Of a stretch of 64,000 nt of DNA, positions 1 through 26,883 are shown piece after piece. Source of the stretch: Streptomyces sp. NBC_01717 (GTDB lineage: Bacteria; Actinomycetota; Actinomycetes; Streptomycetales; Streptomycetaceae); assembly GCF_036248255.1 (NCBI RefSeq), contig NZ_CP109178.1:8127001-8191000 (forward strand). Direction: 5' to 3'. The translations under genes and the position numbers were made by a program. The notes under the pieces are model-generated. The model ran no database searches. It worked only from the letters and a program-made list of their open reading frames with translations, and had not been told where the DNA came from. How positions within the stretch are numbered: the first letter of the stretch is position 1; each line of letters begins with the position of its first letter.

Positions 1-2
1 GG

Positions 3-914
3 CGCCCGGTCACCGCGGACACGGTCTTCGACCTGGCCTCCCTCACCAAGGTGGTGGCGACCACGCCCGCCGTGCTGCGGCTCGCCGACACCGGGGCCTT
101 GCGACTTGACGACCCGGTGCGCCGCCACCTGCCGGCGTTCACCGGGGCGGGCAAGAGTGAAGTGACGATCCGTCATCTTCTGTCGCACTCCTCCGGACTG
201 CCTCCGCACCGGGACTTCTGGCAGCTCCCCGGCGCCCCCGCCGACCGGGTCGCCGCCGTGCTCGCAGAGCCCCTCGACCACCTGCCCGGCACCGTCGTCA
301 ACTACTCCGACCTGGGGTTCATCCTGCTCGGCGAGATCGTCGCCATGGTGGCCGGACAGCAGCTCGACACCGCCGTACGGGAGCTGGTGCTCGACCCGCT
401 GGGCCTGACCGCCACCCGCTACCTCCCGCCCGCGGACTGGCGGGCGGTCACCGCTGCGACCGAGGCACCGCCCGGCGGAGAGCCCAAGCGTGGCGTGGTG
501 CACGACGAGAACGCCGAGAGCCTGGGCGGCGTGGCAGGGCACGCCGGGCTGTTCGGCACTGCGCCGGACCTCGCGCACTACCTTCGTGCCTGCTGGCTGA
601 CCGACGAGTCGCCGCTGTCGGCCCGCACCCGCTCCGAGGCGCTCAGCCTGCAGACCGTGGGGCTGGACGGCGCGCGGGGGCTGGGCTGGACGCTGCCCGG
701 CGACGTCTGGGACCACATGTCCCCGCACTGGCCCGCGACCGGCGCCGGGCACACCGGCTTCACCGGCACCAGCCTGGCGCTCGACCCGGTCACCGGGATC
801 TGGGTGGTGCTGCTGACCAACGCCGTGCACTACGGACGCGGGGCGCGGGCGAAGGAGTTGCGACGTGCGGTGCACGCCGCCGTGGCGGCCCGCGCCGAGC
901 CCGTGCGCGGCTGA
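3..914 (+). CDS. Serine hydrolase, class C beta-lactamase/esterase family (5' partial)
   Basis: The gene enters from the left edge, so its N-terminus is missing and 303 residues remain. It belongs to the class C beta-lactamase/DD-peptidase/EstB family of active-site serine hydrolases. The nucleophile box SLTK is encoded at 39-50; a start at the GTG at 51 would therefore remove the catalytic Ser, which shows that the gene begins upstream. The second box is YSD (Tyr codon at 303; YxN is usual) and the third is HTG at 750-758 in place of KTG, as in many esterase-like members. Stop at 912-914, followed 86 bp later by an RpiR regulator on the same strand. Beside murQ and anmK, a role in trimming peptidoglycan peptides is plausible but inferred. 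A true beta-lactamase or an esterase cannot be excluded. Confidence 0.85.
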   Translation, partial: RPVTADTVFDLASLTKVVATTPAVLRLADTGALRLDDPVRRHLPAFTGAGKSEVTIRHLLSHSSGLPPHRDFWQLPGAPADRVAAVLAEPLDHLPGTVVNYSDLGFILLGEIVAMVAGQQLDTAVRELVLDPLGLTATRYLPPADWRAVTAATEAPPGGEPKRGVVHDENAESLGGVAGHAGLFGTAPDLAHYLRACWLTDESPLSARTRSEALSLQTVGLDGARGLGWTLPGDVWDHMSPHWPATGAGHTGFTGTSLALDPVTGIWVVLLTNAVHYGRGARAKELRRAVHAAVAARAEPVRG

Positions 915-1000
915 GCGCCAAGTGGTGCATCAAGGGCCCGAACCGTACATATCCCGGATACTCAGCGACGCGTACCCCAACGAACCCGTAGGATTCCCAC

Positions 1001-1948
1001 ATGGCTGCCCCACGTGACCGACAGCGCGGAGGCGGCGACGCCCCCCGGCGCTCCGCAGCACCCACCGCAGAGCGCGCGACGCCGCCACAGACGGTGCTGG
1101 TGCAGATCCGGGCCCTGCTGCCTTCTCTGCCACCCTCGGAGCGGCGGGTCGCCGAAGCCGCGATCGCCGATCCGGTCGGGGTGGCCGGGAAGACGATCAG
1201 CGAACTCGCCTTGGAATGCAGCACCTCCGAGACCACCGTCGTCCGCTTCTGCCGGGCCGTGGGCCTCAAGGGCTACCCCGACCTGCGGATCAAACTGGCC
1301 TCGGCGGCCGGCAGCGAGGACAGCGGCCCCGCCTGGTCCAGCGCCGGCAGCGACATCGGGCCCGGCGACTCGCTGGCCGACGTGGTCGGCAAGCTGGGCT
1401 TCGCCGACGCCCGCGCGGTCGAGGACACCATTGCCCAGCTCGACCTCCACATCCTGGAGCGGGCCATCGACGAGGTGGTCGGGGCGAGCGCGGTGGACCT
1501 GTACGGCGTCGGCGCGAGCGCGCTGATCGCGCTCGACTTCCAGCAGAAGCTGCACCGCATCGGGCGCCGGGCGACCGCCTGGCCCGACCCCGACGGTGCG
1601 CTCACGTCCGCCGCCCTGCTCGGCCGCGGGGACCTGGCGATCGGCATCTCGCACACCGGCGCCACCACGGACACCGTGGCAGCGCTGGGCGAGGCCTGGG
1701 ACAACGGTGCCACCACGATCGCGATCACCAACTTCCCGCGTTCGCCGATCGCCGAGGTGGCCGACCACGTGCTGACCACCGCGGTGCGTGAGACCACCTT
1801 CCGGTCCGGCGCGATGTCCAGCCGGATCGCCGCGCTGACACTGGTGGACTGCCTGTTCGTCGGGGTGGCCCAGCGCAACTACAGCCGTACGACACGTGCG
1901 TTGGAGCGCACGTACACGGCGGTGCACCGGCGGCGTTCCCCGCAGTGA
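1001..1948 (+). CDS. RpiR/MurR-family transcriptional regulator with SIS domain
   Basis: Probable phosphosugar-sensing regulator of 315 residues. An N-terminal HTH_6 domain occupies about residues 33-105 and a C-terminal SIS sugar-isomerase-fold domain about residues 160-295. The SIS part carries the phosphate-binding stretch ISHTGATTDT near residues 216-225. ATG at 1001 is preceded by AGGA with about 8 nt spacing. E. coli MurR, which senses N-acetylmuramate 6-phosphate, has the same architecture. The gene is convergent with murQ, so MurNAc-6-P or a related muropeptide sugar is the natural effector candidate (inference). The CGTAA repeats in the murQ/importer intergenic region are its best candidate operators. 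Confidence 0.9.
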   Translation: MAAPRDRQRGGGDAPRRSAAPTAERATPPQTVLVQIRALLPSLPPSERRVAEAAIADPVGVAGKTISELALECSTSETTVVRFCRAVGLKGYPDLRIKLASAAGSEDSGPAWSSAGSDIGPGDSLADVVGKLGFADARAVEDTIAQLDLHILERAIDEVVGASAVDLYGVGASALIALDFQQKLHRIGRRATAWPDPDGALTSAALLGRGDLAIGISHTGATTDTVAALGEAWDNGATTIAITNFPRSPIAEVADHVLTTAVRETTFRSGAMSSRIAALTLVDCLFVGVAQRNYSRTTRALERTYTAVHRRRSPQ

Positions 1949-1964
1949 CCGGCCCCGGGTGACC

Positions 1965-2010: not shown

Positions 2011-2919
2011 TCAGGCGAGGGTGCGCAGGGCCGCGCGGACGCTCCCGCCGCCGGCCTCCAGCGCCTCGCGCGCCTGCTGCGGGGAGCAGTCGGCGAGCAG
2101 ACTGACCAGAGCGGTCTTCAACTCCCCTCCCGAGGCGGCGAGGGCGGCGCCGCAGCGGTCCTCGTCCAGCCCGGTGGCCTCCACCACGATGTTGAGGACC
2201 CGGCCGCGCAACTTGTCGTTGGTGGCGGCCACATCGACCATCAGGTTCGAGTACGTCCGGCCCTGCGCCACCATCACGGCCGTGGACAGGTTGTTGAGCA
2301 CCATCTTGTGCGCGGTGGCGGCCTTCAGCCGGGTGGAGCCCGCGATCGCCTCCGGACCGGTGTCCACCCCCAGGTGGACGTCCACCTGATCCGCCAGCTC
2401 GGCCCCGGGGTTGGCGCTGATCAGTGCGGTGAAGGCACCCGCCGCCCGAGCGGCGCGCAGGGCGCCGCCGACGTAGGGAGTGCGGCCGCTGGCGGCGATG
2501 CCGACCGCGACGTCGCCCGGCCCCACCTCGGCAGCGTCGGCCGCCCCGGCGGACTCCTGGTCCTCGACGCCCTCCACCGGTTCGACCAGTGCGCGCAGTC
2601 CACCCGCGTGATGGGCGACGACGACGCCGGGCGGGAGGCTGTAGGTGGGGATCAGCTCGGCGGCGTCCATCACCGCGAGGCGGCCCGACGTGCCCGCGCC
2701 GAAGTAGTGCAGCCGGCCGCCGGCCCGGATCCGGCGCGCCGTCTCGTCCACCAGCCGAGCCATGTCGGGCAGTACTGCGGCGACGGCCTCGGCCGGGATC
2801 CGGTCCTCGGCGTTGAGCAGACGCAGCACCTCCAGGGTGGGCACGTCGTCGATGTCGCGGGTGCGGGGGTTACGGCGTTCGGTGGGGGCGTCGATTCGTA
2901 CCGGAAGCTGCGGGTGCAT
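2011..2919 (-). CDS. murQ: N-acetylmuramic acid 6-phosphate etherase
   Basis: Cleaves the lactyl ether of MurNAc-6-phosphate to GlcNAc-6-phosphate and D-lactate in the cytoplasm, a central step of peptidoglycan sugar recycling. The 302-residue SIS-domain protein starts at the ATG whose complement is at 2917-2919, with a GAGAGG ribosome-binding site 8 nt upstream. The longer upstream reading frame (to 3102) lacks the family's features. Conserved blocks: TLEVLRLLNAED near residues 28-39, GAGTSGRLAVMDAAE at 74-88 with the family's catalytic Glu at 88, and a second acidic cluster EGVEDQES at 116-123. It is divergent from the first peptide importer across a 282-bp intergenic region with repeated operator-like sites, so the two are probably co-regulated. 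Confidence 0.96.
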   Translation of the reverse strand: MHPQLPVRIDAPTERRNPRTRDIDDVPTLEVLRLLNAEDRIPAEAVAAVLPDMARLVDETARRIRAGGRLHYFGAGTSGRLAVMDAAELIPTYSLPPGVVVAHHAGGLRALVEPVEGVEDQESAGAADAAEVGPGDVAVGIAASGRTPYVGGALRAARAAGAFTALISANPGAELADQVDVHLGVDTGPEAIAGSTRLKAATAHKMVLNNLSTAVMVAQGRTYSNLMVDVAATNDKLRGRVLNIVVEATGLDEDRCGAALAASGGELKTALVSLLADCSPQQAREALEAGGGSVRAALRTLA

Positions 2920-3106: not shown

Positions 3107-3136
3107 TTGACATACCCATGGCGCCGCTCCTACGGT
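3107..3136 (+). promoter_or_regulatory. Probable sigma-70-type promoter of importer 1
   Basis: TTGACA at 3107-3112 and TACGGT at 3131-3136 are separated by 18 bp. Predicted transcription start is near 3143, about 60 nt upstream of the chosen ATG at 3202. This argues against the in-frame ATG at 3118, which lies upstream of the start of transcription. Site C of the operator cluster lies just upstream of the -35. Confidence 0.6.
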
Positions 3137-3201
3137 CTGCACACCCCCCAGGCCTTGTCCCACACACTCCACTTCTGCCTGCCGATCGGAGACCACGCGC
3201 T

Positions 3202-5034
3202 ATGGTCCGGTTCAAGCACTTTGTCGCAGCGTCCGCCGCCCTCGCGACCCTCGGTACCCTCGCCGCGTGCGCACCGGATTCCGGTGCGAAGAACGGCGCC
3301 AACGGCGGTGGCGTCTTCACCACGGTCGACGCGAACAACCCGATCACCCCGGGCGCGCCGATGAACCCGTACAGCCCGAACGGGAACACGTTCCTCAGCT
3401 ACAACTCGATGCGCCTCGGGTTCGAGAAGAAGAATCCGATGGATGCGAACGACGCCTTCCCGGGCCTCGCCAAGAGCTGGGAGACCAAGGGCGACACGCT
3501 GGTCGCGCACATGCAGCCCGACGCCAAGTGGTCCGACGGCAAGCCGGTCACCGTCGAGGACATCAAGATGTCCATGGCCATCGCGCTCACCCAGGGCACC
3601 GCCTCGGTCGGCTCGGGCCAGCTGAGTGAGGGCCTCAACGTCGCCTCCGTGACGGCCGTCGGCAAGCACGACATCGAGTTCAAGCAGGCCGCCGGAACCA
3701 ACAACGCGAACTTCGCGAAGCAGATCCTGGGCCAGTCCATCGTCCCCAAGTCGGTCTACGGCCACCTCGTGCCGGCCGACATCTGGGACACCATCGCCGC
3801 AAGCCAGCAGGTGGACGCGGCCCAGGCGAAAGCCGCCCAGGCCGCTGTCGACAAGCTGAACGAGACCGGCAAGGCCATCGCGGCCTTCGCGCCGAAGCAG
3901 GACGTCTCGGCCGGCCCGTTCGTGGTCAAGCGTGTCAATCCCGGCTCGGCCATCCTCGTCCGCAACAAGTACTTCTACGACCTGGGCAAGATCGCTCCGA
4001 GCCAGGTGGTCATCCGCCACTACTCCGGCAACGAGCAGATCTGGGGCTTCATGAAGAACGGTGACCTGGACGCCGCGCCCTTCACCGCCATCCCCACGAA
4101 CGTCCTGAACCAGATCCTGGCCAAGGGCTACAAGCGCGCCGACGGCACCTCCTACGTCAACGCCTCCATCGCCTTCAACCAGAGCAAGGCACCGTACGAC
4201 AAGAAGGAGGTGCGTCAGGCCCTGACGTACATCCTCGACCGTGAGGCCATCACCAAGGTGGGCCAGCCGGTCGGCGGCATGGCGTCCACCGCCCCCGCCG
4301 GCATGATCCGCAAGTCGACCGAGCAGTGGCTGGGCGCCGACGCCGTAGGCAAGCTCAACCCGTACGCCCACGACGAGGCGAAGGCCACCGAGCTGCTGAA
4401 GGGCGCAGGCCTCAAGCAGAAGGGTGGCAAGTGGTACCTGGCGAACGGCAAGCAGTGGAAGATCACGCTGCAGACCGTCAACGGCTTCAGTGACTGGATC
4501 GCCGCCTCCACCGTCGTCGCCAACGAGCTCACCGCTTTCGGCATCGAGACCAAGCCGGCCCTCTCCGCCGACTTCGGCGCCTACCAGACGGACATGGCCG
4601 CCGAGAAGTTCGACGTCGGCTGGTGGCTGACCGCCGTCGGATCCGACCCGCGCCAGAACTTCCAGCGCCTGTACGGCGAGAGCGACGGCTTCGTCGCCAA
4701 CGGCAACAAGGTCACCCACACCGAGAAGAAGGGTGACGGGAACTGGATGCACGGCGACGAGACCTTCACGGTCGACGGGCAGTCCATCAACCCGGGTCAG
4801 CTGACGGCCGACCTCGCCGGCCTCGACACCGAGGCCAAGAAGCCCGTCATCACGCAGCTGGTCAAGGCCACCAACCAGGAAGTTCCCGTCATCCCGATCT
4901 GGGACTACACCAACGTGAAGTTCACCTACGACAAGAACTTCACCAACTGGCCGAAGAACGGGCAGGACGAGATCCTCGCCAACCAGCCCGGCGTGTGGAT
5001 GATGCAGGGCTACATCCAGGCCAAGACCAAGTGA
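3202..5034 (+). CDS. Oligopeptide ABC transporter, lipoprotein substrate-binding protein
   Basis: Extracytoplasmic solute-binding family 5 protein (SBP_bac_5; OppA/DppA/MppA type) of 610 residues, the capture component of importer 1. The chosen ATG at 3202 gives a textbook lipoprotein signal peptide with lipobox LAAC and Cys at residue 23; GGAGA lies about 10 nt upstream. Typical signatures are WSDGKPVTVEDI in the first third and RQALTYILDRE in the middle. It heads SBP-permease-permease-ATPase-ATPase followed by anmK and is divergent from murQ, so murein peptides or anhydromuropeptides are the likely ligand (inference from context). A hairpin lies between it and the first permease. Confidence 0.93.
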   Translation: MVRFKHFVAASAALATLGTLAACAPDSGAKNGANGGGVFTTVDANNPITPGAPMNPYSPNGNTFLSYNSMRLGFEKKNPMDANDAFPGLAKSWETKGDTLVAHMQPDAKWSDGKPVTVEDIKMSMAIALTQGTASVGSGQLSEGLNVASVTAVGKHDIEFKQAAGTNNANFAKQILGQSIVPKSVYGHLVPADIWDTIAASQQVDAAQAKAAQAAVDKLNETGKAIAAFAPKQDVSAGPFVVKRVNPGSAILVRNKYFYDLGKIAPSQVVIRHYSGNEQIWGFMKNGDLDAAPFTAIPTNVLNQILAKGYKRADGTSYVNASIAFNQSKAPYDKKEVRQALTYILDREAITKVGQPVGGMASTAPAGMIRKSTEQWLGADAVGKLNPYAHDEAKATELLKGAGLKQKGGKWYLANGKQWKITLQTVNGFSDWIAASTVVANELTAFGIETKPALSADFGAYQTDMAAEKFDVGWWLTAVGSDPRQNFQRLYGESDGFVANGNKVTHTEKKGDGNWMHGDETFTVDGQSINPGQLTADLAGLDTEAKKPVITQLVKATNQEVPVIPIWDYTNVKFTYDKNFTNWPKNGQDEILANQPGVWMMQGYIQAKTK

Positions 5035-5167: not shown

Positions 5168-6166
5168 GTGAAGGGACTGGCGCGCACCATCGCGATCCGA
5201 CTGGTCGGCGGCGCGGTCATGATCTGGATCGTGGCCACGTTTACGTTCTTCCTCGTCCACGCTCTGCCCGGCAAGCCGGGCGACGTGGCGTACGAGAAGT
5301 ACGTCGCCATGGGAATGAACTCCCAGGACGCCAAGGCCAAGGCCTCGATCATCTACGGGTTCACCTCACAGGACCCGCTGCTCACGCAGTACACGCACTA
5401 CATCGGCGACCTGCTCCACGGTCACCTCGGGATTTCGATCTCCTACAGCGGAGTGCCGGTCGCGGATGTCATCGGCGACGCCCTGCCGTGGACCGTCATC
5501 CCGATCATGAGCGGCCTGCTGATCAGCTTCTGCATCGGTGTCAGCAGTGGTGTGGTCGCGGCGGTGAAGCGGTCGTCCCGCCTGGGCGGCGGGCTGAGCC
5601 TGGCCGCCTCGATGATCGCCGGCATCCCGTCGTTCGTGATCGCGATCCTGCTCATCACCGTCTTCTACACCAACCTGGGAGCCTTGCCGTACGGGGGCAC
5701 CGTCTCCGAGACGCTCCTGGTGGACCCCGGATGGAACGTCGAGTACGTGTCGTCCGTCGCGTACCACGCGGTCCTCCCGGTCGCTACTTACGTCCTCATC
5801 TCCTACGGCGGCTGGATGCTCAGCATGCGCTCCAGCGTGGTGTCCGTCCTCGGTGACGACTTCATCCTCGCTTCCGAGCTGCGCGGCATCACCCCCAGCA
5901 CGCGGATGCGCTACATCGGGCGCAACGCGATCCTGCCGCTGTTCACCACCCTCGCCCTCTCGTTCGGCACGTTGTTCGGCGGAGCGATCCTGATCGAGGC
6001 CACCTTCAACTACCCCGGCGTCGGGCAGCTGTTGCTGGACAGCATCGGCAAGCGCGACTACCCCCTGATGACCGGCGCCTTCCTGCTGATCACCACCGCG
6101 GTGGTGCTTGCGAACATCGTCGCGGACCTCCTCTACTCCGTGATCGACCCCCGAGTGAGGCGCTGA
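5168..6166 (+). CDS. Oligopeptide ABC transporter permease, DppB/OppB type
   Basis: First transmembrane subunit of importer 1, 332 residues. The GTG start at 5168 has a very strong upstream Shine-Dalgarno, GAAGGAGGTG at 5151-5160. An N-terminal transmembrane helix is followed by a large extracytoplasmic loop and further helices (binding-protein-dependent transport, BPD_transp_1). The cytoplasmic EAA-type loop reads ASELRGITPSTRMRYIGRN and couples to the ATPases. The next permease starts 2 nt after its stop, so the two are translationally linked. Confidence 0.93.
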   Translation: MKGLARTIAIRLVGGAVMIWIVATFTFFLVHALPGKPGDVAYEKYVAMGMNSQDAKAKASIIYGFTSQDPLLTQYTHYIGDLLHGHLGISISYSGVPVADVIGDALPWTVIPIMSGLLISFCIGVSSGVVAAVKRSSRLGGGLSLAASMIAGIPSFVIAILLITVFYTNLGALPYGGTVSETLLVDPGWNVEYVSSVAYHAVLPVATYVLISYGGWMLSMRSSVVSVLGDDFILASELRGITPSTRMRYIGRNAILPLFTTLALSFGTLFGGAILIEATFNYPGVGQLLLDSIGKRDYPLMTGAFLLITTAVVLANIVADLLYSVIDPRVRR

Positions 6167-6168
6167 CC

Positions 6169-7080
6169 ATGACCACCGTGACGCTCACCGAGCCGCGCCG
6201 TCCGGCAGATGCCCCGTCGGCGAGGCGTTCCCGCTGGACCGGCATCTGGCGCGTCCTCACGCGCAAGCCCGGCCGGATCATCGGCCTGTCCATCCTGGTG
6301 TTGTTCGTCCTGATGGGCACCTTCGGCCCGATGCTCTACGGCGACCAGCTCGCGATCGACCCGGACGCGATCTATCAGCCGCCGAGCGCAGAGCACTGGC
6401 TCGGAACCGACTTCGCCGGTTCCGACGTGCTCCAGGCCACTGTCGTCGGCAGCCGCTACGTACTGCTCACCTGCTCGCTCGCCGCCCTGTTCGCCTCGAC
6501 GATCGGCACCGCCGTCGGGCTCCTGGCCGGTTTCCACCGCGGCTTGTCCGACTCCGCGCTGATGCGTGTCACCGACTTCGTACTCACGGTCCCCGGCCTG
6601 CCGCTGCTCGTCGTGCTCACCACCGTGTGGGAGTTCGACAGCCCGCTGGAGATGGGGTTCGTGCTCGGCGTCGTCGGCTGGGGCGGCATCGCCCGTGCCG
6701 TCCGCTCCCAGGCGTTGAGCCTGCGCGAGCGCGGCTTCCTGGAGGCCGCACGCGGCCTCGGGCTGCCCAGCCGGCACATCATCGTGCGCGAGCTCCTGCC
6801 GAACATCGCCCCGTACGTGGCGATGCACCTGCTCCTGTCGGTCATCGGCTTCGTCGAGGCCCAGGTCGGGCTGTTCTTCCTCGGCATCGTGCCGTTCACC
6901 AGTACCAACTGGGGCGTGATGATCAACCAGGCGGTGTTCTCCGGAGGAGCGCTGCAGAGCCCCGAGGCAATCTTCTACCTGCTGGCGCCACTCACCTGCA
7001 TCCTGCTCCTGATCATGGGCGTGGTGCTGTTCCTGGACGCGATCGACGAGCTCTTCAACCCGCGACTGAGGGAGCGCTGA
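6169..7080 (+). CDS. Oligopeptide ABC transporter permease, DppC/OppC type
   Basis: Second transmembrane subunit of importer 1, 303 residues. After a cytoplasmic N-terminus of about 40 residues there is one helix, then the GTDFAGSDVL-type motif typical of DppC proteins, then the helical transport domain with the EAA loop FLEAARGLGLPSRHIIVREL. Its TGA at 7078-7080 overlaps the ATG of the next gene by one base. Confidence 0.93.
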   Translation: MTTVTLTEPRRPADAPSARRSRWTGIWRVLTRKPGRIIGLSILVLFVLMGTFGPMLYGDQLAIDPDAIYQPPSAEHWLGTDFAGSDVLQATVVGSRYVLLTCSLAALFASTIGTAVGLLAGFHRGLSDSALMRVTDFVLTVPGLPLLVVLTTVWEFDSPLEMGFVLGVVGWGGIARAVRSQALSLRERGFLEAARGLGLPSRHIIVRELLPNIAPYVAMHLLLSVIGFVEAQVGLFFLGIVPFTSTNWGVMINQAVFSGGALQSPEAIFYLLAPLTCILLLIMGVVLFLDAIDELFNPRLRER

Positions 7081-9217: not shown

Positions 9218-10372
9218 GTGAGAGTCCTGGGACTCAGCTCCGGCACCTCGCACGACGCGATCGACGCGGCCGTCGTCGAATTCAGCCTCGACGGCGACAC
9301 CTTGCACGGCACCCTCGTCCACGCGGCCGCACACCCCTACCCGGCCGGACTGCGCGCCGAGATCCTGGACGCGCTTCCCCCGCGGGATGTGACGCTGGCC
9401 GCGGTGTGCCGCCTGGACACCCTCATCGGGCAGTCCTTCGCCGACACCGCGGCGGCGACAGTGACCGCGGCAGAGCCGGTCGACCTGGTGTGCTCGCACG
9501 GCCAGACCCTCTACCACTGGGTGGACGACGGGACGGTGCGCGGCACCCTGCAACTCGGCCAGCCTGCCTGGATCGCCGAACGCCTGGGCGTGCCGGTGGT
9601 GTCCGATGTACGCACCGCGGACGTGGCGGCGGGCGGCCAGGGCGCACCCCTGGTGTCGCTCCTGGACACGCTGTTGCTCAGCGGACTCCCGGGTCCGGCG
9701 GGGGCGCTGAACCTCGGTGGGATCGCCAATCTGACATCGGTCGGGCAGGGCGCGCCGGTCGCCTTCGACACCGGTCCCGCAAACGCCCTGATGGACGCGG
9801 CCGCACTGGCCGGGACCGGCCGGCCGTACGACGAGGACGGCCGGCTCGCCGCCGCCGGACGGGTGGATCCGGCGCTGCTCGCCGCGCTGCTCGCCGAACC
9901 GTACTACCGGCGCGAGCCGCCGAAGAGCACCGGCAAGGAGCTCTTCCACGCCGACTACCTGACCGGGCACCTGGCCGGACGTCCCCCGCTCCCGGTCGAG
10001 GACCTCCTGGCCACACTGGCCGAACTGACCGCACGCACGGTTGCGGACGCGGTACGGGAGCGAGGCCTGCGGACCCTGGTGGTGTCCGGCGGCGGCGCGG
10101 ACAACCCGGTGCTGACCGAGCGGATCGGCGCACTGCTGCCGGGAGTCGAACTGCTGCGCTCCGACGCGCTGGGACTGCCCTCGGCAGCCAAGGAGGCGGT
10201 GGCCTTTGCCTTGCTCGGCTGGTTCACCGCGCACGGCCTGCCGGGCACGCTGCCCAGCTGCACCGGGGCGACGGGAGGACGGCTGCTGGGCCGGATCACC
10301 CCGGGCCACGGGCCGCTGCGGCTGCCGGAGCCGTTGACCGGGGCCCCGGCCGCCGCCCGCTTCAGCTGCTGA
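9218..10372 (+). CDS. anmK: 1,6-anhydro-N-acetylmuramic acid kinase
   Basis: Opens and phosphorylates 1,6-anhydroMurNAc to MurNAc-6-phosphate with ATP, feeding MurQ. 384 residues, GTG at 9218 with AAAGGAA upstream. It has the ASKHA sugar-kinase phosphate motif [12 protein letters not shown] at residues 7-18, the block [12 protein letters not shown] around 135-146, NLGGIANLT near 165-173, and [10 protein letters not shown] near 184, where Asp184 corresponds to the catalytic base. A second nucleotide-binding motif VSGGGADNP lies near the C-terminus. Anhydro-sugars arise from lytic transglycosylases, so the kinase implies import of, or internal turnover to, anhydromuropeptides. It closes importer 1's operon. 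Confidence 0.96.
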
Positions 10373-18933: not shown

Positions 18934-20004
18934 ATGACCATTACGTCCGATACGTCCGACAGCGCGAGCGCCGTCGGCCCCGTGCCCGGGAGCGACGCGG
19001 CCGACGCCGCCTCCCGCCCGGGCTCGGGGCGGGCAGACTTCCTCCGCTTCCTGGGCACCAAGCTCGCCGCAGCCGCCGTCAGCTTCGTCATCGTCCTGGG
19101 CATCGGCTTCGTGATCTTCCAGCTGATGCCCTCGGACCCGGTCCAGACGATGACCCGCGGCCGGCCCACCAGCGATGCGCAGATGGCCCATCTGCGCCAG
19201 ACACTGGGCCTGGACCAGCCGGTGTGGGAGCGGTTCCTGCACTTCGTGAACGACATCGTCCACCTGGATCTGGGCCGTTCCTGGCAGTACCAGCAGTCCG
19301 TCTCCTCCCTCATCGGCGAACGCGTCGGCCCCACCCTGCTCCTGATGGGCACGGCCACCGCGATATCCGTGGTGGTCGGCCTGTGGCTGGGGGTGCGCAG
19401 CGGGTGGCGGCACGGCAGCCTCTTCGACAAGATCACTTCCTCGGCGGCGCTGACCTTCTGGTCGGTCCCCACCTACTGGCTGGGCATGATCCTGCTGATC
19501 TGGCTCAGCGTCGGCCTCGATCTGTTCCCCTCCGGCGGTATGTCCGACCCGTCGCTCGGCGCCACCGGCTTCGGCCATGTTCTCGACGTGGCCCGCCACA
19601 TGGTGCTGCCGTGTCTGACGATGGTGCTCGTGGTCTTCGCCCAGTACGTGTCGATCATGCGCTCGTCGATCATCGATGAGCTGGGCAGTCCCTATCTCCT
19701 GACCGCCCGGGCCAAGGGGCTTGTCGACGACGCCGTTCGCCGCAAGCACGCCGTGCCCAACGCGTTGCTTCCCTCGGTCACCGTGATCTTTCTTCACCTG
19801 GGCACGATGGTCGGCGGTGCGATCACGGTCGAGACCGTCTTCAGCTGGCCGGGTCTCGGCTCGCTGACCATCGAGGCACTCAAGGTGCCCGACATCCCCG
19901 TACTGCAGGGCACGTTCATCATCTTCAGCGCCAGTGTGATCCTGATGAACCTCCTCGCCGACGTGCTCTACCGCTTCCTCGACCCCCGGGTGCGTGTGCG
20001 ATGA
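18934..20004 (+). CDS. Peptide ABC transporter permease, DppB/OppB type
   Basis: First membrane subunit of importer 2, 356 residues. A Ser/Ala-rich cytoplasmic tail of about 40 residues precedes the first helix (AAAVSFVIVLGIGFVIF). The DppB-type LMPSDPVQTMTRGRPT segment follows, then the transport domain with the EAA-like loop YLLTARAKGLVDDAVRRKH. Its stop overlaps the next ATG (ATGA). Confidence 0.93.
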   Translation: MTITSDTSDSASAVGPVPGSDAADAASRPGSGRADFLRFLGTKLAAAAVSFVIVLGIGFVIFQLMPSDPVQTMTRGRPTSDAQMAHLRQTLGLDQPVWERFLHFVNDIVHLDLGRSWQYQQSVSSLIGERVGPTLLLMGTATAISVVVGLWLGVRSGWRHGSLFDKITSSAALTFWSVPTYWLGMILLIWLSVGLDLFPSGGMSDPSLGATGFGHVLDVARHMVLPCLTMVLVVFAQYVSIMRSSIIDELGSPYLLTARAKGLVDDAVRRKHAVPNALLPSVTVIFLHLGTMVGGAITVETVFSWPGLGSLTIEALKVPDIPVLQGTFIIFSASVILMNLLADVLYRFLDPRVRVR

Positions 20005-20915
20005 CGATTTCCGACACCACTGACATCACCGCCGCGGCATCCCCGGCCGGTTCGCCTCCCCGGCTGGCCTCCGTCGGCCGCTTCGCGCGCGCCTACGCCA
20101 AGCGCCCGTCCGGTCTCGTCGGCCTGGGCATCCTGCTCGTCGCCACGATCCTCGCGCTCTGCGCCCCGCTCTTCATAGGCCCCGAGCAGCTCGACGTCAC
20201 CAAGGTCGACGGCCCGCTGCTCTCCGCGCCCGGCTCCGGCTACCTCCTCGGCACCGACCAGGCCGGCCGCTCCGTGGTGGACCTGCTGATCTGGGGTTCG
20301 CGCTCCTCGCTGTCCATCGGCGTCATCGCGACCGTGCTCACCATGGTGCTCGGCTCCACGATCGGACTGCTCGCAGGCCACTACCCGGGCAAGCTCGGCA
20401 AGGCCCTGATGCATGTCACCGACTGGTTCATCGCGCTGCCCAGCCTGCCGCTGGCCATCTCCCTCGCCGCGGTCCTGGGGCAGGGCACGGCGTCCATCAC
20501 CATCGCCATCGCGGTGACCTCCTGGACGTCCACCGCCCGCCTGGTCCGTGCCCAGACCCTCGCCGTGGAGGCACGCCCGTTCATCGAGCGCGCCAAGGTC
20601 CTCGGCGCGGGCAACCGCCAGGTGATGGTCCGTCATGTACTCCCGAACGTGGCCCCGTTGATCCTGGTCTCCGCCACCCTCACCGTGGCCTCGGCGATCC
20701 TCTCCGAGGCCACCCTGACCTTCCTCGGTCTCGGCGACCCGACCGGGGTCTCCTGGGGTTCCATGCTCAATGCCGCCTTCTACCAGGGCGCCATGACCTC
20801 CGGTGCCTGGTGGTACGTCGGCACGCCCGGTATCGCGATCCTTCTCGTCGTCCTCGGCTTCACCCTCACCGGGCGTGCCGTGGAACACGTCCTCAACCCG
20901 CGGATGGTGGGCTGA
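20001..20915 (+). CDS. Peptide ABC transporter permease, DppC/OppC type
   Basis: Second membrane subunit of importer 2, 304 residues, with ATG at 20001 inside the previous stop. It shows the DppC signature GTDQAGRSVVDLLIWG and the EAA loop PFIERAKVLGAGNRQVMVRH. The next gene starts 2 nt after its stop. Confidence 0.93.
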   Translation: MTISDTTDITAAASPAGSPPRLASVGRFARAYAKRPSGLVGLGILLVATILALCAPLFIGPEQLDVTKVDGPLLSAPGSGYLLGTDQAGRSVVDLLIWGSRSSLSIGVIATVLTMVLGSTIGLLAGHYPGKLGKALMHVTDWFIALPSLPLAISLAAVLGQGTASITIAIAVTSWTSTARLVRAQTLAVEARPFIERAKVLGAGNRQVMVRHVLPNVAPLILVSATLTVASAILSEATLTFLGLGDPTGVSWGSMLNAAFYQGAMTSGAWWYVGTPGIAILLVVLGFTLTGRAVEHVLNPRMVG

Positions 20916-20917
20916 CC

Positions 20918-21910
20918 ATGACCCTGCTCGACGTACGCGACCTCTCCGTCACCTACCGCGACGGCGACAGCCTCATCCCCGCCGTGCGCGGTGTCAGCTT
21001 CACCCTGGACCGGGGTGAGACCCTCGGCGTGGCCGGCGAGTCCGGCTCCGGCAAGTCCACCATGGTGCTCAGCCTGCTGCGGCTGCTGCCCAAGAGCGCC
21101 AAGGTCACCGGACAGGTGCTGTACGAAGGCGAGGACCTGCTCACCGCCAAGTGGTCCGCACTGCGCACCGTGCGCTGGAACGGCGCGTCCGTGGTCTTCC
21201 AGGGCGCCATGAGCGCCCTCAACCCGGTGCGCCCCATCGGCGAGCAGATCTGCGAGCCGATCCTGCTCCACGAGAAGGTGTCCCCGCGCACCGCCCGCGG
21301 ACGCGCCGCCGAACTGCTCGACAGCGTCGGCATATCGCCGCAGCGGATGGGCAGTTACCCGCACGAGTTCTCCGGCGGCCAGCGCCAGCGCATCATGATC
21401 GCCATGGCGCTCGCCTGCCGCCCCGACCTGATCATCGCCGACGAGCCCACCACCGCCCTCGATGTGATGGTGCAGGCGCAGATCATGGAGCTCTTCACCG
21501 AGCTGGTACGGAACTCCGGCGTCGGCGTCATCATGATCAGCCACGACCTCTCGGTGCTCTCCGAGATGTGCGGCCGGCTCGCCGTGATGTACGCCGGCGA
21601 GATCGTCGAGACCGGACCTTCGCAGCAGGTCATCGAAGCTCCCCGGCACCCGTACACCGACGCACTGGCCAGGGCGTTCCCCACCATCGGCGACCCCGCG
21701 TCCCGGTTCGCGCCCTCCGGACTGCCCGGCGACCCGCCGGACGTCGCGGCGCTCGGCGCGGGCTGCGCCTTCGTCCCGCGCTGTGTGCACGCCGTCGACG
21801 CCTGCCGCACGAAGGCCGTCGAGCTGTGGCCCGCGGGCGATCGGCGCAGCGCCGCCTGTCTGCGCGTTCTGGACGCCCACACCCCCGTAACCGAAGGGAG
21901 CCAGGCATGA
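20918..21910 (+). CDS. Peptide ABC transporter ATP-binding protein, DppD/OppD type
   Basis: First ATPase of importer 2, 330 residues, ATG at 20918. Walker A GESGSGKST, signature FSGGQRQRI, Walker B IIADEPTTALD, H-loop SHD, and the Cys-containing C-terminal extension GCAFVPRCVHAVDAC. The stop overlaps the next ATG (ATGA). Confidence 0.94.
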   Translation: MTLLDVRDLSVTYRDGDSLIPAVRGVSFTLDRGETLGVAGESGSGKSTMVLSLLRLLPKSAKVTGQVLYEGEDLLTAKWSALRTVRWNGASVVFQGAMSALNPVRPIGEQICEPILLHEKVSPRTARGRAAELLDSVGISPQRMGSYPHEFSGGQRQRIMIAMALACRPDLIIADEPTTALDVMVQAQIMELFTELVRNSGVGVIMISHDLSVLSEMCGRLAVMYAGEIVETGPSQQVIEAPRHPYTDALARAFPTIGDPASRFAPSGLPGDPPDVAALGAGCAFVPRCVHAVDACRTKAVELWPAGDRRSAACLRVLDAHTPVTEGSQA

Positions 21911-22893
21911 GCACCACCGCCCCGGCCCTGGAGGTCAGCGACCTCCGCATCACCTACCCGGCGCGCGCGGGCCGTGGGCCCGCCCGCGCCGTGGACGGAG
22001 CCAACCTGACCGTCGGCCAGGGCGAGATCGTCGCCCTGATCGGCGAGTCGGGGTGTGGCAAGTCCACCCTCGCCCGCGCGCTCGTCGGCCTGATCAAGCC
22101 CACCAGCGGTGAGATCCGCTATCAGGGCAAGCCCCTCACCTACTCCGCCCGGGCGCTCAAGGAGTACCGCCGCCATGCCCAGCTGGTGCTCCAGGACCCG
22201 GGCGGCGCCCTCAACCCGCGGCAGAACGTCTACGACGCCGTCGCTGAGGGGCCCCGGCTGCACGGTACGACGGAGGAGCTCAACAGCCGTGTGCACACGG
22301 CTCTTTCGCGTGCCGGGCTGCGTCCTCCGGAGCGGTTCCTGCACCGCTTCCCGCACGAGATGTCCGGCGGCCAGCAACAGCGCGTCGTCATCGCGGGGGC
22401 CCTGGCCCTGGACCCGTCGGTGATCGTCGCCGACGAGCCGGTCGCATCCCTCGACGCCTCGGTGCGCGGCGAGATCCTCAAGCTGATACTCGAACTCCGC
22501 GACAGCCTCGGCCTGTCCGCCCTCGTCGTCAGCCACGACCTGGGCCTGGCCTGGAACATCGCCGACCGGGTCGCCGTGATGTACCTCGGCCGGATCGTCG
22601 AGGTCGGCACCGTCGAGGAGGTGCTGCTGCACCCCAAGCACCCGTACACCAAGGCCCTGCTCTCGGTGCTGCCCGAGGCCGGACGCGACCAGCGGCCGAC
22701 CGTACTGACGGGTGAGCCCCCGGACCCGACCCGCATCCCGTCCGGCTGCCGCTTCCACCCGCGCTGCCCGCTCTGGCCGGAACTGGAGGGCGCCGAACGG
22801 GCCGCCGCCGGCTGCGACACACGCGAGCTGCCCGTACTGACCGCCGACCCGGCGTCCGCCCAGGCGGCCTGCCATCTCGCCCATGGCCGCTGA
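21907..22893 (+). CDS. Peptide ABC transporter ATP-binding protein, DppF/OppF type
   Basis: Second ATPase of importer 2, 328 residues, starting at 21907 within the previous stop. Walker A GESGCGKST, signature MSGGQQQRV, Walker B VADEPVASLD, H-loop SHD, and the C-terminal oligopeptide extension with GCRFHPRCPLW. Its last 11 bases overlap the start of the GNAT gene, so transport and D-amino-acid conversion are tied in one transcript. Confidence 0.94.
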   Translation: MSTTAPALEVSDLRITYPARAGRGPARAVDGANLTVGQGEIVALIGESGCGKSTLARALVGLIKPTSGEIRYQGKPLTYSARALKEYRRHAQLVLQDPGGALNPRQNVYDAVAEGPRLHGTTEELNSRVHTALSRAGLRPPERFLHRFPHEMSGGQQQRVVIAGALALDPSVIVADEPVASLDASVRGEILKLILELRDSLGLSALVVSHDLGLAWNIADRVAVMYLGRIVEVGTVEEVLLHPKHPYTKALLSVLPEAGRDQRPTVLTGEPPDPTRIPSGCRFHPRCPLWPELEGAERAAAGCDTRELPVLTADPASAQAACHLAHGR

Positions 22894-23677
22894 ACCCGCA
22901 CTCGCCGTACGCGACGTCGAAGGTCCTGCCGCCATGGCGGCCTGTATCGCCCTGTATGCCGAGGTGATGGGGCTGCGGCCGTCGGACGGGGGCCTCAACC
23001 CCCGCCTGCTGACCGCGCTCCAGTCCAACGGAGGCATCGTCGTCGCCGCGTACGAGGGCGACCTGGCGCGGCCGGTCGGATTCGCATACAGCTTCCTGGC
23101 CCGCGAGGGGGGCGGCGAGCTGTTCCAGTTCTCGCAGCTCGCCGTGGTCGCCCGCCACCTCCAGGGGCAGGGGGTGGGCCGGCTCCTCAAGCACGCGCAG
23201 CGCGAGCGGACCCTGGCCATGGGGCTGACCCGGATCCGCTGGTCCTACGACCCCCTGAAGACCCGTAACGCGCACTTCAACCTGGACGTGCTCGGCGGGC
23301 GGGTCCACGTACTCAAACCGTCGATGTACGGCGGCGAGGGCTTCGGCGACGACGCGGGCGAGCCCACCGACCGGTTCCTCCTCGACTGGGACCTGACGCG
23401 GCCGGCCACGGTCCGGCCCACGCTCCCCGACCGGGCCTGGCAACCCGGTGAGTGTCTGGCCCAGGGCGACGACCTGCTGATCGCCGTACCCGCCCGCTGG
23501 GATCTGCACCGCACCGCCGTAGGAGCGCCCGCCGCCGCCGCACTGCGCACCTCGCTCAGGGAAACTTTCACCGAGGCCCTGGCCACCCATGTCGGGGTCT
23601 CCTGCCTGCGTGTCACCGACGACCTCGCGGTCTACCGGTTCGTTCCGCGCGGCACCGACCAGGAGGGCGCCTCATGA
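22883..23677 (+). CDS. GNAT family N-acyltransferase (candidate D-amino-acid N-succinyltransferase)
   Basis: Acyl-CoA-dependent N-acyltransferase of 264 residues, ATG at 22883. The GNAT core is at about residues 10-130, with the acyl-CoA-binding stretch VVARHLQGQGVGRLL (Q/RxxGxG type) near 90-104. It is larger than a minimal GNAT and carries RIRWSYDPLKTRNAHFNLD, which I recognise from the COG3375-type group. That type is found next to N-succinylamino-acid racemases and, in Geobacillus kaustophilus, acts as a D-amino-acid N-succinyltransferase. Here a racemase and an M20 hydrolase follow with overlapping or adjacent starts, matching that three-gene set. Substrate assignment is by family and context. 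Confidence 0.85.
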   Translation: MAAEPALAVRDVEGPAAMAACIALYAEVMGLRPSDGGLNPRLLTALQSNGGIVVAAYEGDLARPVGFAYSFLAREGGGELFQFSQLAVVARHLQGQGVGRLLKHAQRERTLAMGLTRIRWSYDPLKTRNAHFNLDVLGGRVHVLKPSMYGGEGFGDDAGEPTDRFLLDWDLTRPATVRPTLPDRAWQPGECLAQGDDLLIAVPARWDLHRTAVGAPAAAALRTSLRETFTEALATHVGVSCLRVTDDLAVYRFVPRGTDQEGAS

Positions 23678-24804
23678 CGATCACCATCACCGAGATCGAA
23701 CTCTCCCTTGTACGGCTGGACCTGATCCACGAGTTCGAGACCAGCTCCCACCGCAAGTCGCACCTCGACCACATCGTGGTCAGAGCGACCGCATCCGACG
23801 GCACGGTCGGCTGGGGCGAGTGCGCCTCGCCCAGCGACCCCTACTACTGCAGCGAATCCACCGAGAGCTGCTGGTACGTCCTGAGCGAGCACCTCGCCCC
23901 CATGGTCCTCGGCCGCCCCTGGGAGCACCCCGACGACGCGGCTGCCCTCACCACCCGCCTCTCGGGCAACCACTTCGCCCGCGCCGGGCTCGACATGGCC
24001 TGCTGGGATCTGTACGGGCAGGCCCGCGGCGAGACCCTCGCCAACCTCGTCGGCGGCACCGCCGAGAGGATCAGCGCGGGTGTCAGTCTCGGTATCGAGC
24101 CGACCGTCGACGCTCTCCTGGACCAGGTCGCCCGGCATGTCGGCGACGGCTACCGCCGCATCAAGCTCAAGTGCCGCCCGGGCTGGGACCTCGAGCCGGT
24201 ACGGGCCGTACGCGCGGCCTTCCCCGGTATCGCCCTCCAGGTCGACGCCAACACCGGCTACCGGGCCGACTCCGCCGAGCACCTGGCCGCCCTCACCGCC
24301 CTCGACGACCAGGGCCTGCTGATGATCGAGCAGCCCTTCGCCGAGGACGACCTGCTCGGCCACGCCGGCCTCGCCGCCCGGCTCGAGACCCCCGTCTGTC
24401 TCGACGAGTCGATCACCTCACCCGCCGTACTGGCCACCGCTCTGCACCTGGGCGCCGCCGACATCGTCAACATCAAGGTGTCCCGGCTCGGCGGAATCGG
24501 ACCGTCCGTAGCGGTGCACGACGTGTGCCGCGAGGCCGGAATCCCGGTGTGGTGCGGGGGGATGCACGAGTTCGGCATCGGGCGCGCGGCCAACCTCGCC
24601 GTCGCCTCGCTGCCGGGCTTCACCCTGCCCTCGGACGTCTCCGGCTCCGACAAGTACTACCGCCAGGACATCGTCACCCCGCCGATCCGTGCCACCGAGG
24701 GCCTGGTCCCGGTGCCCGACGCCCGCCCGGGCCTCGGTGTCCATGTCGACGAGTCCCTGATCCGGGCGAACCGGCTGCGGCACGCCGTACTGAAGGAAGG
24801 CTGA
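23674..24804 (+). CDS. N-succinylamino-acid racemase / o-succinylbenzoate synthase-type enolase
   Basis: Enolase-superfamily protein (muconate-lactonising subgroup) of 376 residues, ATG at 23674 inside the GNAT stop. Catalytic and metal residues are all readable: Lys164-x-Lys166 in IKLKCRPGWD, metal ligands Asp191 (VDANTGY), Glu219 (MIEQPF) and Asp244 (CLDESI), and the opposite catalytic Lys268 in NIKVSRLGG. The tail block CGGMHEFGIGRAAN is typical of the OSBS/NSAR family. In that family o-succinylbenzoate synthase (menaquinone) and N-succinylamino-acid racemase share a fold. The GNAT and M20 neighbours and absence of other men genes favour the racemase. Dipeptide epimerase is a weaker alternative. 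Confidence 0.9.
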   Translation: MTITITEIELSLVRLDLIHEFETSSHRKSHLDHIVVRATASDGTVGWGECASPSDPYYCSESTESCWYVLSEHLAPMVLGRPWEHPDDAAALTTRLSGNHFARAGLDMACWDLYGQARGETLANLVGGTAERISAGVSLGIEPTVDALLDQVARHVGDGYRRIKLKCRPGWDLEPVRAVRAAFPGIALQVDANTGYRADSAEHLAALTALDDQGLLMIEQPFAEDDLLGHAGLAARLETPVCLDESITSPAVLATALHLGAADIVNIKVSRLGGIGPSVAVHDVCREAGIPVWCGGMHEFGIGRAANLAVASLPGFTLPSDVSGSDKYYRQDIVTPPIRATEGLVPVPDARPGLGVHVDESLIRANRLRHAVLKEG

Positions 24805-24808
24805 GCCG

Positions 24809-25948
24809 ATGCGATTCGACGCCGAGCAGCTGCGCGAGCGGGCACTCGCCCGCCTGGAAACCCTCGTCATGGCCGAGAGCCCGTCCGGAGAACCCGAACT
24901 CCTCCGGATCGTCAACGCCGATCTGGAGCAGGCTTATCGGGCTCTCGGAGCCCGGGTCACCCGCGAGAGCGGACCGCACGGCGACCACCTGGTCTGCGAG
25001 TGGCCGGGCACGGCCCCCGATGACGCACACATACTCCTCATCGGCCACAGCGACACCGTCCTCCCCGTCGGCACCACTGTCGAGCGCCCCTTCACGCTCC
25101 ACGAGGACGGCGACACCGTCACCGGCCCCGGCGTGTACGACATGAAGGGCTCACTCGTCGCCATCGAGCTGGCCTTCGCCCTACTTCGCGAACAGGGCCT
25201 CTCCCCGTCCCGCCCGGTGCGCCTGGTCGTCGTCAACGACGAGGAGATCGGCTCCCCGGACGGCCGCCGCATCATCGCCGCCCACGCCGAGGGCGCCTTC
25301 GCAGCCCTGGGCTTCGAACCGCCGCTGCCCGGCGGCACACTGAAGACCGGCAGGCGGGGAGTGGCCCGGGTGCGCATCGACGTCCAGGGCGTGGAGGCGC
25401 ACGCCGGGCTCGACGCCTCGCTCGGCACCTCCGCGATCGACGAGCTCATCGACCAGATCGCGGTTGTACGGGGTGCCGTCCCGGCGCCGCCCGCCGCCGA
25501 GTTCAACATCGGCACCATCAGCGGCGGCACCCGCGCCAACGTCGTCGCCGGTACGGCTTCGGCCGAGATCGGTCTGCGGTTCGCCACGCCTGCCGCCGAG
25601 GCCGCCGTACTCGGCGCTCTCGACTCCCTCACTCCGGTCCGCCCCGACGCAAAGGTGACCGTCACCCGGCTGTCGTACCGCCCCGCCTGGGAGCGCGACC
25701 CGGCGAACCCCCTCGCCGCGCGACTCGCCGCGCTCGCCGCCGAGCGGGGCACCGATCTGCTCACCGGCACCTCGGGCGGTGCAGGTGACACCAATCTCAC
25801 CGGCTCGCTCGGCATCCCCACCGCCGACGGCCTCGGCCCGGACGGTGCGGGCGCCCACTCCATGTCCGAACGCGCCTCGGTCGCCTCACTGCTGGACCGT
25901 GCCGCTCTGCTCGCCGCCTACCTCATCGCACCCGAGGAGTCCGCATGA
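24809..25948 (+). CDS. M20 family hydrolase (candidate N-succinyl-L-amino-acid desuccinylase)
   Basis: Zinc hydrolase of 379 residues, ATG at 24809 four nt after the racemase stop, in the CPG2/ArgE part of M20. Motifs: GHSDTVLPVG (metal ligand), GPGVYDMKGS (bridging Asp), VVNDEEIGSP (catalytic Glu pair), dimerisation domain near 180-290 with NIGTISGGTRANVV, and a final GAHSMSE metal-site His. Placed after GNAT and racemase it fits the L-specific desuccinylase that makes D-to-L conversion irreversible; ordinary peptidase activity is the alternative. The stop overlaps the LD-carboxypeptidase ATG. Confidence 0.87.
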   Translation: MRFDAEQLRERALARLETLVMAESPSGEPELLRIVNADLEQAYRALGARVTRESGPHGDHLVCEWPGTAPDDAHILLIGHSDTVLPVGTTVERPFTLHEDGDTVTGPGVYDMKGSLVAIELAFALLREQGLSPSRPVRLVVVNDEEIGSPDGRRIIAAHAEGAFAALGFEPPLPGGTLKTGRRGVARVRIDVQGVEAHAGLDASLGTSAIDELIDQIAVVRGAVPAPPAAEFNIGTISGGTRANVVAGTASAEIGLRFATPAAEAAVLGALDSLTPVRPDAKVTVTRLSYRPAWERDPANPLAARLAALAAERGTDLLTGTSGGAGDTNLTGSLGIPTADGLGPDGAGAHSMSERASVASLLDRAALLAAYLIAPEESA

Positions 25949-26883
25949 CCTCCCCCGAAAACACCGGCCTGCTCCGCCCGTCCGCTCTCCGAGCAGGTGA
26001 CCGGGTCGCCGTCACCGCCGCCTCGGGCGCGCCGCGCGCCGAGGACCTGGAGAAGGGCGTCGCGGCCCTGGAGAGTCTCGGCCTGATCGTCGACGTGCTG
26101 CCCTCGGCGCGCGCCGCCGGCGTCCCTCTCGACTATCTCGCAGGCGACGACGCCACCCGCGCCGCCGACCTCGCCACCGCTCTCACCGACCCCCGCTACC
26201 GTGCCGTCTTCATGGCTCGGGGCGGTTACGGCGCCCAACGCACCCTGGAGGGCGTCGACTTCGCTTCCCTGGGCACCCCCGCGCCGCGTGTGCTCGTCGG
26301 CTACTCGGACGTCACCGCGCTCATCGAGGCGGTCTCGGTGCACCTGGGCTGGGTGTCGCTGTTCGGACCGATGCCCGTCTCGGACGACTTCACCCCTGGT
26401 TCGTACGCCTTCGACTCCCTGGCCAGGACCCTCTTCACCCCGGCCGAGGCCACCCGTCTCACCTTCCCCGCGGCCCGCACCCTGGTGGGCGGCACGGCCG
26501 CGGGCGTCACGCTCGGCGGCACCGCGAGCCTGCTCTGCTCCTCGCTCGCGACCCCCACCTCGCGCCCGGCACGCGGCGGCATCCTCTTCCTGGAGGACGT
26601 CGACGAGGAGCCGTACCGGCTGGACCGCATCCTCACCCAGCTGCGCCGGTCCGGCTACCTCGACGGGGTCGCGGGCATCCTCTGCGGAACCTTCACCGGC
26701 TGCGGTGACCCGGCCGAGATCGACGCCCTGCTGCTCGACCGGCTCGGCGACCTCGGCGCCCCCGTGCTGGCCGGCGCCGACATCGGCCACGGCGTCCCGA
26801 TGCAGACCTTCCCGGTCGGCGTCCCGGCCCGCCTCGACGCCGACGGGGGCACGCTCACCTTCGACGGACCGGTGCTCGCCTGA
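25945..26883 (+). CDS. LD-carboxypeptidase (peptidase S66, LdcA/MccF family)
   Basis: Removes the terminal D-amino acid from L-centre-linked muropeptides (tetrapeptide to tripeptide) in the cytoplasm, the committing step of wall-peptide recycling. 312 residues, ATG at 25945 overlapping the M20 stop. The S66 triad is readable as Ser121 in GYSDVTAL, Glu217 in LFLEDVDEEPYRLDR and His282 in DIGHG, at spacing matching characterised LdcA proteins. The nucleophile-elbow region ARGGYGAQR is intact. MccF-like deacylation of a peptide antibiotic is a family alternative, but murQ, anmK and two importers nearby favour the murein role. Last gene of the importer 2 operon; a terminator follows. Confidence 0.92.
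   Translation: MTSPENTGLLRPSALRAGDRVAVTAASGAPRAEDLEKGVAALESLGLIVDVLPSARAAGVPLDYLAGDDATRAADLATALTDPRYRAVFMARGGYGAQRTLEGVDFASLGTPAPRVLVGYSDVTALIEAVSVHLGWVSLFGPMPVSDDFTPGSYAFDSLARTLFTPAEATRLTFPAARTLVGGTAAGVTLGGTASLLCSSLATPTSRPARGGILFLEDVDEEPYRLDRILTQLRRSGYLDGVAGILCGTFTGCGDPAEIDALLLDRLGDLGAPVLAGADIGHGVPMQTFPVGVPARLDADGGTLTFDGPVLA

Follow-up and report, generated by a model that had tools for sequence, protein, structure and literature searches.

We analysed a 64,000-nucleotide stretch of the 10.2 Mb genome of Streptomyces sp. NBC_01717 (C1:8,127,001-8,191,000; hereafter the window), the left part of which carries two neighbouring catabolic units that probably serve the use of peptidoglycan fragments. 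Unit A (1-10,372) would act on N-acetylmuramic acid (MurNAc) and its anhydro form. Unit B (10,461-26,883) would act on imported murein stem peptides, with inversion of N-acylated D-residues and decarboxylation of diaminopimelate (DAP). An earlier note on this DNA had described the region 1-26,883 as one integrated supercluster. All the enzymes and importers that it placed there are present, with intact catalytic motifs where checked, and its peptide half is a conserved unit; a single supercluster of A and B across Streptomycetaceae is not found. The earlier proposal is therefore partly supported, with two units rather than one.

Genes were identified by combining codon-position GC with open reading frames (ORFs) and profile searches. 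Scanning the window for Rfam families and tRNAs gave no matches. Unit B has a left arm on the minus strand (XRE-cupin, LysA, S9), diverging from a right arm on the plus strand (the SIS protein RpiR2, M20a, a five-gene Opp importer, a GNAT, a racemase of the N-succinylamino acid racemase (NSAR) type, M20b and LdcA). From RpiR2 to LdcA there are eight overlaps or gaps of at most 4 bases and two longer gaps, one of 105 and one of 76 bases. With two diverging arms, and right-arm genes that overlap or are closely packed, 10,461-26,883 looks like one divergon, composed as follows (OSBS, o-succinylbenzoate synthase).

10461..12491, minus strand: S9 prolyl-oligopeptidase-family aminopeptidase (PF00326; start codon read)
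12488..13870, minus strand: lysA paralogue, diaminopimelate decarboxylase (TIGR01048, 417.7 bits, above the cut-off of 297.9; start codon read)
13867..14490, minus strand: XRE-cupin regulator (profile searches)
14491..14530, no strand: conserved element of the XRE-cupin/RpiR2 intergenic region, GCGGTGACAGTAATACTCGC..CTTAGATCAA (window, NBC_00154, JH14, G003, G095, G818)
14575..15507, plus strand: RpiR2, SIS-domain protein (divergent N-terminal region, non-canonical phosphosugar loop)
15504..16868, plus strand: M20a metallopeptidase, PRK07906 subfamily (625.4 bits, above 382)
16974..18857, plus strand: SBP2, binding protein (signal peptide; C-terminal hydrophobic segment, a probable membrane anchor; no lipobox)
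18934..22893, plus strand: opp2BCDF (permeases 18934-20004 and 20001-20915; ATPases about 20912-21910 and 21907-22893)
22883..23677, plus strand: GNAT N-acyltransferase (sequence searches)
23674..24804, plus strand: NSAR/OSBS-type racemase (MenC/NSAR model, 295.3 bits against a cut-off of 200.65)
24809..25948, plus strand: M20b, probable deacylase (closest PDB entry, carboxypeptidase G2)
25945..26883, plus strand: LdcA, S66 LD-carboxypeptidase (S66 triad matched in the alignment by GYSD, Glu and His)

The GNAT, the NSAR and an M20 hydrolase are encoded in one string of overlapping or adjoining genes. Lys165, Lys267 and Arg270 of the racemase align with Lys163, Lys263 and Arg266 of 1sja, which we take to mark both catalytic lysines and the equivalent of Arg266. 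A role as OSBS would be unnecessary, because the genome has two MqnA/MqnD-family genes. The same three protein families form the D-to-L pathway of N-succinylamino acid racemase in Geobacillus; in unit B their genes are embedded with those for LdcA, the importer and LysA.

Of all single features, the coupling of a DAP decarboxylase to the S9 peptidase in the left arm points most strongly to peptides that contain DAP. The LysA of the block keeps the CESGD motif and, judged by its identities, is a lineage of its own: it shares 71-97% identity among six Streptomyces blocks, 44-51% with three paralogues in its own genome (45-50% in another comparison) and about 31% with a fourth, distant homologue. 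The claim is based on these values, the LysA tree being weakly supported (block rows as one group, 42/40; long outgroup branch). Streptomyces walls contain LL-DAP and the substrate of LysA is meso-DAP, so that an epimerase encoded elsewhere, or walls of foreign origin, would be needed.

The closest PDB entry to the S9 protein is 3azo, labelled 'Aminopeptidase' (506 bits), presumably a Streptomyces enzyme that hydrolyses puromycin. This resemblance, and the inclusion of MccF immunity proteins in the S66 family, could suggest that unit B provides self-immunity or detoxification, its MccF-like S66 protein and its S9 aminopeptidase inactivating a peptide antibiotic. Such a role is highly improbable. 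By bit score, the best PDB match of LdcA within S66 is the LD-carboxypeptidase 6uuk, at 104.2 bits against 72.6 for the best MccF. LysA, the importer and the D-to-L module have no evident part in immunity, and no biosynthetic genes were seen among those scanned, in a scan that was not exhaustive.

Unit B is kept as a unit in three further Streptomyces genomes (G003, G095 and G818), with 49-77% amino-acid identity per gene to the window. Importer 2, both M20 proteins, S9, LysA, GNAT/NSAR and LdcA occur together in all three. Here an M55-type gene lies between those for NSAR and M20b; it was assigned through a 55% identical homologue in the genome under study. LdcA is present in all six Streptomyces blocks examined. 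At E<=1e-50, four of 392 Streptomyces genomes carry the GNAT, its own included; an earlier, overlapping draw gave matches at E<=0.001 in 71 of 246, just three of them with at least 58% identity. Scanning contigs with one GNAT sequence extended no further than two close relatives, and the wider conservation comes from genome searches. The genome also carries a second set, LdcA-S9-M20a-M55 (L146 6604-11719, about C1:1,920,600-1,925,720), adjoined by an S15-type peptidase gene. Its LdcA, S9 and M20a are 46%, 44% and 53% identical to those of the window, and its M55 is 55% identical to the G003 protein.

Across the class, GNAT matches at E<=1e-30 occur in 18 of 394 genomes, two of these Streptomyces. 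The loci of 13 of the 16 carriers outside Streptomyces were fetched. Twelve have M20b-GNAT-SIS-NSAR with no LdcA in the fetched stretch; in the remaining carrier, Agromyces protaetiae, the order is SBP2-Opp2-S9-LdcA-M20b-GNAT-SIS-NSAR, and M20a lies directly upstream. Among 120 genomes of the Agromyces family (Microbacteriaceae), GNAT is present in eight and LdcA in eight at E<=1e-20, two of the LdcA matches being weak (E about 1e-28), and both in five (hypergeometric P 1.5e-5, ignoring phylogeny). The two genes lie within about 1-10 kb of each other in all five co-carriers. The Opp2 set stands beside GNAT in six of the eight carriers; G686 and G694 have the quartet only, and G710 gave no SIS match. 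Pfam scans of hand-chosen neighbours, whose counts are not rates, found M19 membrane dipeptidase at four loci, Beta-lactamase2 at three, S13 D-Ala-D-Ala carboxypeptidase at one and DAO-type flavoproteins at two. In G710, with a genome of about 1.5 Mb, locus L166 combines M20b-SBP2-Opp2-LdcA and GNAT-NSAR with M19 dipeptidase and Beta-lactamase2 genes.

We favour peptidoglycan fragments as the substrates because of the family assignments, catalytic residues and short gaps, the conservation of unit B with M55 added and the second LdcA-S9-M20a-M55 set. The co-occurrence of GNAT and LdcA in the Agromyces family beside M19, S13 and Beta-lactamase2 genes, and the separate lineage of LysA, are further reasons. 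Several observations weigh against this reading. SBP1, the binding protein of unit A, and SBP2 are only remotely MppA-like (24.7 and 63 bits), and their specificity is unreadable from sequence. No enzyme cutting D-Glu from DAP was identified within unit B, LysA had no tblastn match in the Microbacteriaceae islands, and no operator common to A and B was noticed by eye in aligned intergenic regions. In many actinomycetes M20-GNAT-NSAR occurs with no LdcA or importer nearby, so that the trio alone is not wall-specific. It is the commoner relative of the module in Streptomyces: among 29 short loci (L013-L041; stretches of 2-3.8 kb), NSAR is present in 28, M20b in 22 and LdcA in none; the loci of G003 and G095 are among the 29, and their LdcA falls beyond the stretch. 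In two widened loci (L046 and L047), LdcA was not found within 20 kb.

The occurrence of this trio without LdcA nearby, the broad specificity of NSAR enzymes and the kinship of S9 with the aminopeptidase 3azo would all suit a general scavenger of D-amino-acid peptides, taking up microbial peptide natural products or racemised soil protein rather than peptidoglycan in particular. We consider this quite unlikely for unit B, in view of its DAP decarboxylase of separate lineage, the constant presence of LdcA in the Streptomyces blocks, the S13, M19 and M55 neighbours in relatives and the adjoining murQ-anmK unit.

As a pathway for murein peptides, unit B would probably work as follows. Stem peptides would be released outside the cell, where the linked NlpC/P60 protein described below is one enzyme that could free them, and imported by Opp2, fed by SBP2 and perhaps by its paralogue SBP2b. 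LdcA would remove D-Ala, and S9 and M20a would hydrolyse the remaining peptide. A released D-amino acid, most likely D-Glu or D-Ala, would be N-acylated by the GNAT, the N-acyl amino acid racemised by the NSAR and the L-amino acid freed by M20b. DAP would be converted to lysine by the dedicated LysA. Substrates, import specificity, flow and regulation are what we infer here from gene content, active-site residues, overlapping gene order and conservation, which are observed directly.

In Bacillus subtilis, the murein-peptide genes dppB-E - ykfABCD place a peptide ABC importer beside the LD-carboxypeptidase YkfA, an enolase-superfamily enzyme and a peptidase (accessible part of PMC2954226). Unit B shares the five-gene peptide ABC importer, the S66 LD-carboxypeptidase and an enolase-superfamily enzyme. 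The M55 family is also common to both, being found in B. subtilis by a control search and in relatives of the block; DppA, an M55 D-aminopeptidase, presumably sits in the dpp operon. Unit B differs in having NSAR, GNAT and M20 in place of the L-Ala-D/L-Glu epimerase YkfB, and in its own LysA, S9, M20a, SIS and XRE-cupin genes. No NlpC/P60 gene is present among those at 10.4-26.9 kb, a secreted protein of this type being encoded at 37,939-39,045, and the block of the window lacks the M55 gene of the G003, G095 and G818 blocks, that of the genome lying elsewhere. Since the epimerase models score the racemase at 83.8 and 67 bits, against cut-offs of 500 and 343, unit B is not a member of the dpp-ykf system, though it would work in a similar manner. 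Nor do we claim membership of the DgcN-DgcA D-glutamate route (accessible part of PMC10845958), the DgcA model giving 100.6 against a cut-off of 400. For ABC import of muropeptides there is a precedent in YejBEF-YepA of Agrobacterium, a transporter that takes over where AmpG is missing (accessible part of PMC9790009).

Unit B may be an actinobacterial murein-peptide pathway in which acylation, racemization and deacylation (GNAT-NSAR-M20) replace dipeptide epimerization, a dedicated decarboxylase turns DAP into lysine, and control is by a SIS protein without phosphosugar loop or recognizable helix-turn-helix (HTH), perhaps sensing an N-acyl amino acid or peptide; we put forward this fuller scheme only tentatively. 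The parts are known, and the peptide gene set seems to be an actinobacterial version not described before. The literature searched contained no account of this locus, most subscription papers being outside its coverage, which is weak evidence of novelty. In comparison with MurNAc recycling, and judging by the papers found, the use of the peptide part of peptidoglycan by Gram-positive soil actinomycetes seems little described. If a compact gene set of this kind recurs, with substrates open to testing, NSAR/GNAT/M20 trios would gain a physiological role, and the salvage of D-amino acids would be tied to turnover of the wall or to the lysis of other bacteria. Muropeptide import in Streptomyces could readily be tested with this locus.

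Unit A comprises an AmiE/PBP4B-like hydrolase, MurR, MurQ, an Opp importer and AnmK, with a GH3/NagZ-type gene just upstream.

1..914, plus strand: AmiE/PBP4B-like serine hydrolase (PF00144, 213 bits on the part in the window; 5' end outside the window)
1001..1948, plus strand: MurR/RpiR family regulator (PRK11337, 199.7 bits, below the cut-off of 378)
2011..2919, minus strand: murQ, MurNAc-6-phosphate etherase (TIGR00274, 308.5 bits, above the cut-off of 302)
3118..5034, plus strand: SBP1, family-5 binding protein (lipobox LAAC; translation probably begins near 3,202)
5168..9139, plus strand: opp1BCDF (permeases 5168-6166 and 6169-7080; ATPases about 7077-8120 and 8117-9139, the start codon position of the first being uncertain)
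9218..10372, plus strand: anmK, anhydro-MurNAc kinase (NF007146, 576.8 bits, above the cut-off of 440)

The AmiE-like ORF continues upstream in locus L009, from 14,748 or 14,898, and its best NCBIfam model is PBP4B, at 114.6 bits below the cut-off of 385. The regulator adjoining murQ belongs to the RpiR family, though under equivalog cut-offs. The GH3 (NagZ-type) glycosidase gene adjoins the AmiE-like gene directly upstream of the window (L009 12183-13712, minus strand). Farther upstream (L009 about 6000-12000) are a BPD_transp_2-type ABC importer, a LacI regulator and an aldose 1-epimerase, the importer and LacI genes lying about 5-9 kb from the window.

MurQ-dependent recycling of MurNAc 6-phosphate is known in S. 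coelicolor, and unit A shares MurQ, MurR, AmiE/PBP4B-like and GH3/NagZ-type genes with the murQ clusters of E. coli, B. subtilis and S. coelicolor (SCO4305-4308; both statements from the accessible part of PMC5061867). It differs by AnmK, an addition not present in every such cluster, and by its Opp-type transporter, no MurP importer of the phosphotransferase type being present among the scanned genes. Unit A is a variant of these clusters. Outside the cell, the AmiE/PBP4B-like protein and the upstream GH3/NagZ-type enzyme would trim muropeptides, and the products would enter through Opp1. AnmK would phosphorylate anhydroMurNAc and MurQ would yield N-acetylglucosamine 6-phosphate and D-lactate, under the control of MurR.

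Among the loci examined, A and B adjoin each other in three strains alone: that of the window, NBC_00154 and JH14. No unit A genes were found around B in the fetched flanks of the other three Streptomyces carriers (these extend past S9 by about 10 kb in G003 and G095 and by 16 kb in G818). SBP1, 98% identical in NBC_00154 and 94% in JH14, is found at E<=1e-60 in one of 246 Streptomyces genomes, that of the window itself (five candidates scored per genome). AnmK is present in 112 of the 246. Twenty stretches of 20 kb, taken from the 111 other carriers, contain murR-like genes in nine cases, murQ in four and an opp1B-like gene in one; SBP1, S9, LdcA and NSAR were each found in none of the 20. 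These results do not support A plus B as one unit of the Streptomycetaceae. The earlier note had made its proposal depend on the gene groups co-occurring in relatives: those of unit B do so, and for A with B this holds only in part.

Other transporters stand beside AnmK elsewhere: MFS-type matches in seven of the 20 stretches, and sodium:solute (SSF) symporters in both Pfam-scanned loci (L078 and L082). The Opp1 of the window may accordingly be a swapped importer. These transporters, the rarity of SBP1 and the separation of A from B in the other three carriers would also be expected if the juxtaposition were accidental, with unit A working alone and Opp1 importing something unrelated. This is rather unlikely, as NBC_00154 and JH14 share the gene order and orientation of the window, with identities of about 87-100%, although JH14 has different genes downstream of B. 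The SSF and MFS proteins adjoining AnmK (L078-L097) are candidate (anhydro)MurNAc transporters, and L078 also has a BadF/BcrA-type gene.

The XRE-cupin and SIS proteins are likely the switches of the divergon. Similarity of the element between their genes extends into the first codons of XRE-cupin and is present in all six Streptomyces blocks. The divergon strings GACAGTAA and TTAGATCAA occur once each on the plus strand of the window. In Pfam searches RpiR2 gave SIS matches alone and no HTH match; this and the alignment suggest a divergent HTH. The phosphosugar loop reads SHTGAT in the MurR of the window, SFRSYS in RpiR2 and SLRRYR in other RpiR2-like proteins, and the RpiR2 ligand may be something other than a sugar phosphate. 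The RpiR2-like SIS proteins that were aligned have S[FL]R.Y.R.T in place of the loop (matches in L121-L133 and L163-L169). The relatives of RpiR2 outside Streptomyces are apparently stand-alone SIS proteins without HTH, encoded between GNAT and NSAR.

Beyond the stretch covered by the earlier note, three genes at 35.9-41.0 kb are likely an extension of the locus.

35932..37839, minus strand: SBP2b, SBP2 paralogue (65% identity; NBC_00154 97%, JH14 89%)
37939..39045, minus strand: secreted NlpC/P60 protein with two PG_binding_1 stretches (NBC_00154 97%, JH14 85%)
39056..40951, minus strand: Rv2525c-like glycoside-hydrolase-like protein with PG_binding domains (also present in NBC_00154 and JH14)

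SBP2b is a possible second receptor for Opp2. The NlpC/P60 protein, predicted to be secreted from its N-terminus, is a candidate for the cut between D-Glu and DAP. In JH14 the extension lies about 16.7 kb from LdcA, compared with 9 kb in the window; its genes were not found next to B in the fetched flanks of G003, G095 and G818. Binding proteins that have a signal peptide but, in place of a lipobox, a hydrophobic segment at the C-terminus are encoded at 16974-18857 and 35932-37839 of the window, and also in Agromyces (L124 1-1812).

The intervening genes (27054-35796) encode an XRE-cupin, an MFS transporter, an FAD oxidoreductase, a CoA-transferase, an enoyl-CoA hydratase, a dihydrodipicolinate synthase (DHDPS)-type protein, a short-chain dehydrogenase (SDR) and an aldehyde dehydrogenase (ALDH), and form a separate catabolic cluster. 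Those at 27.9-35.8 kb were set aside as part of the locus, since the JH14 block is flanked by no more of them than part of the MFS gene and an ALDH match at 36% (SDR not searched). The XRE-cupin gene of this cluster does occur at the same place in JH14.

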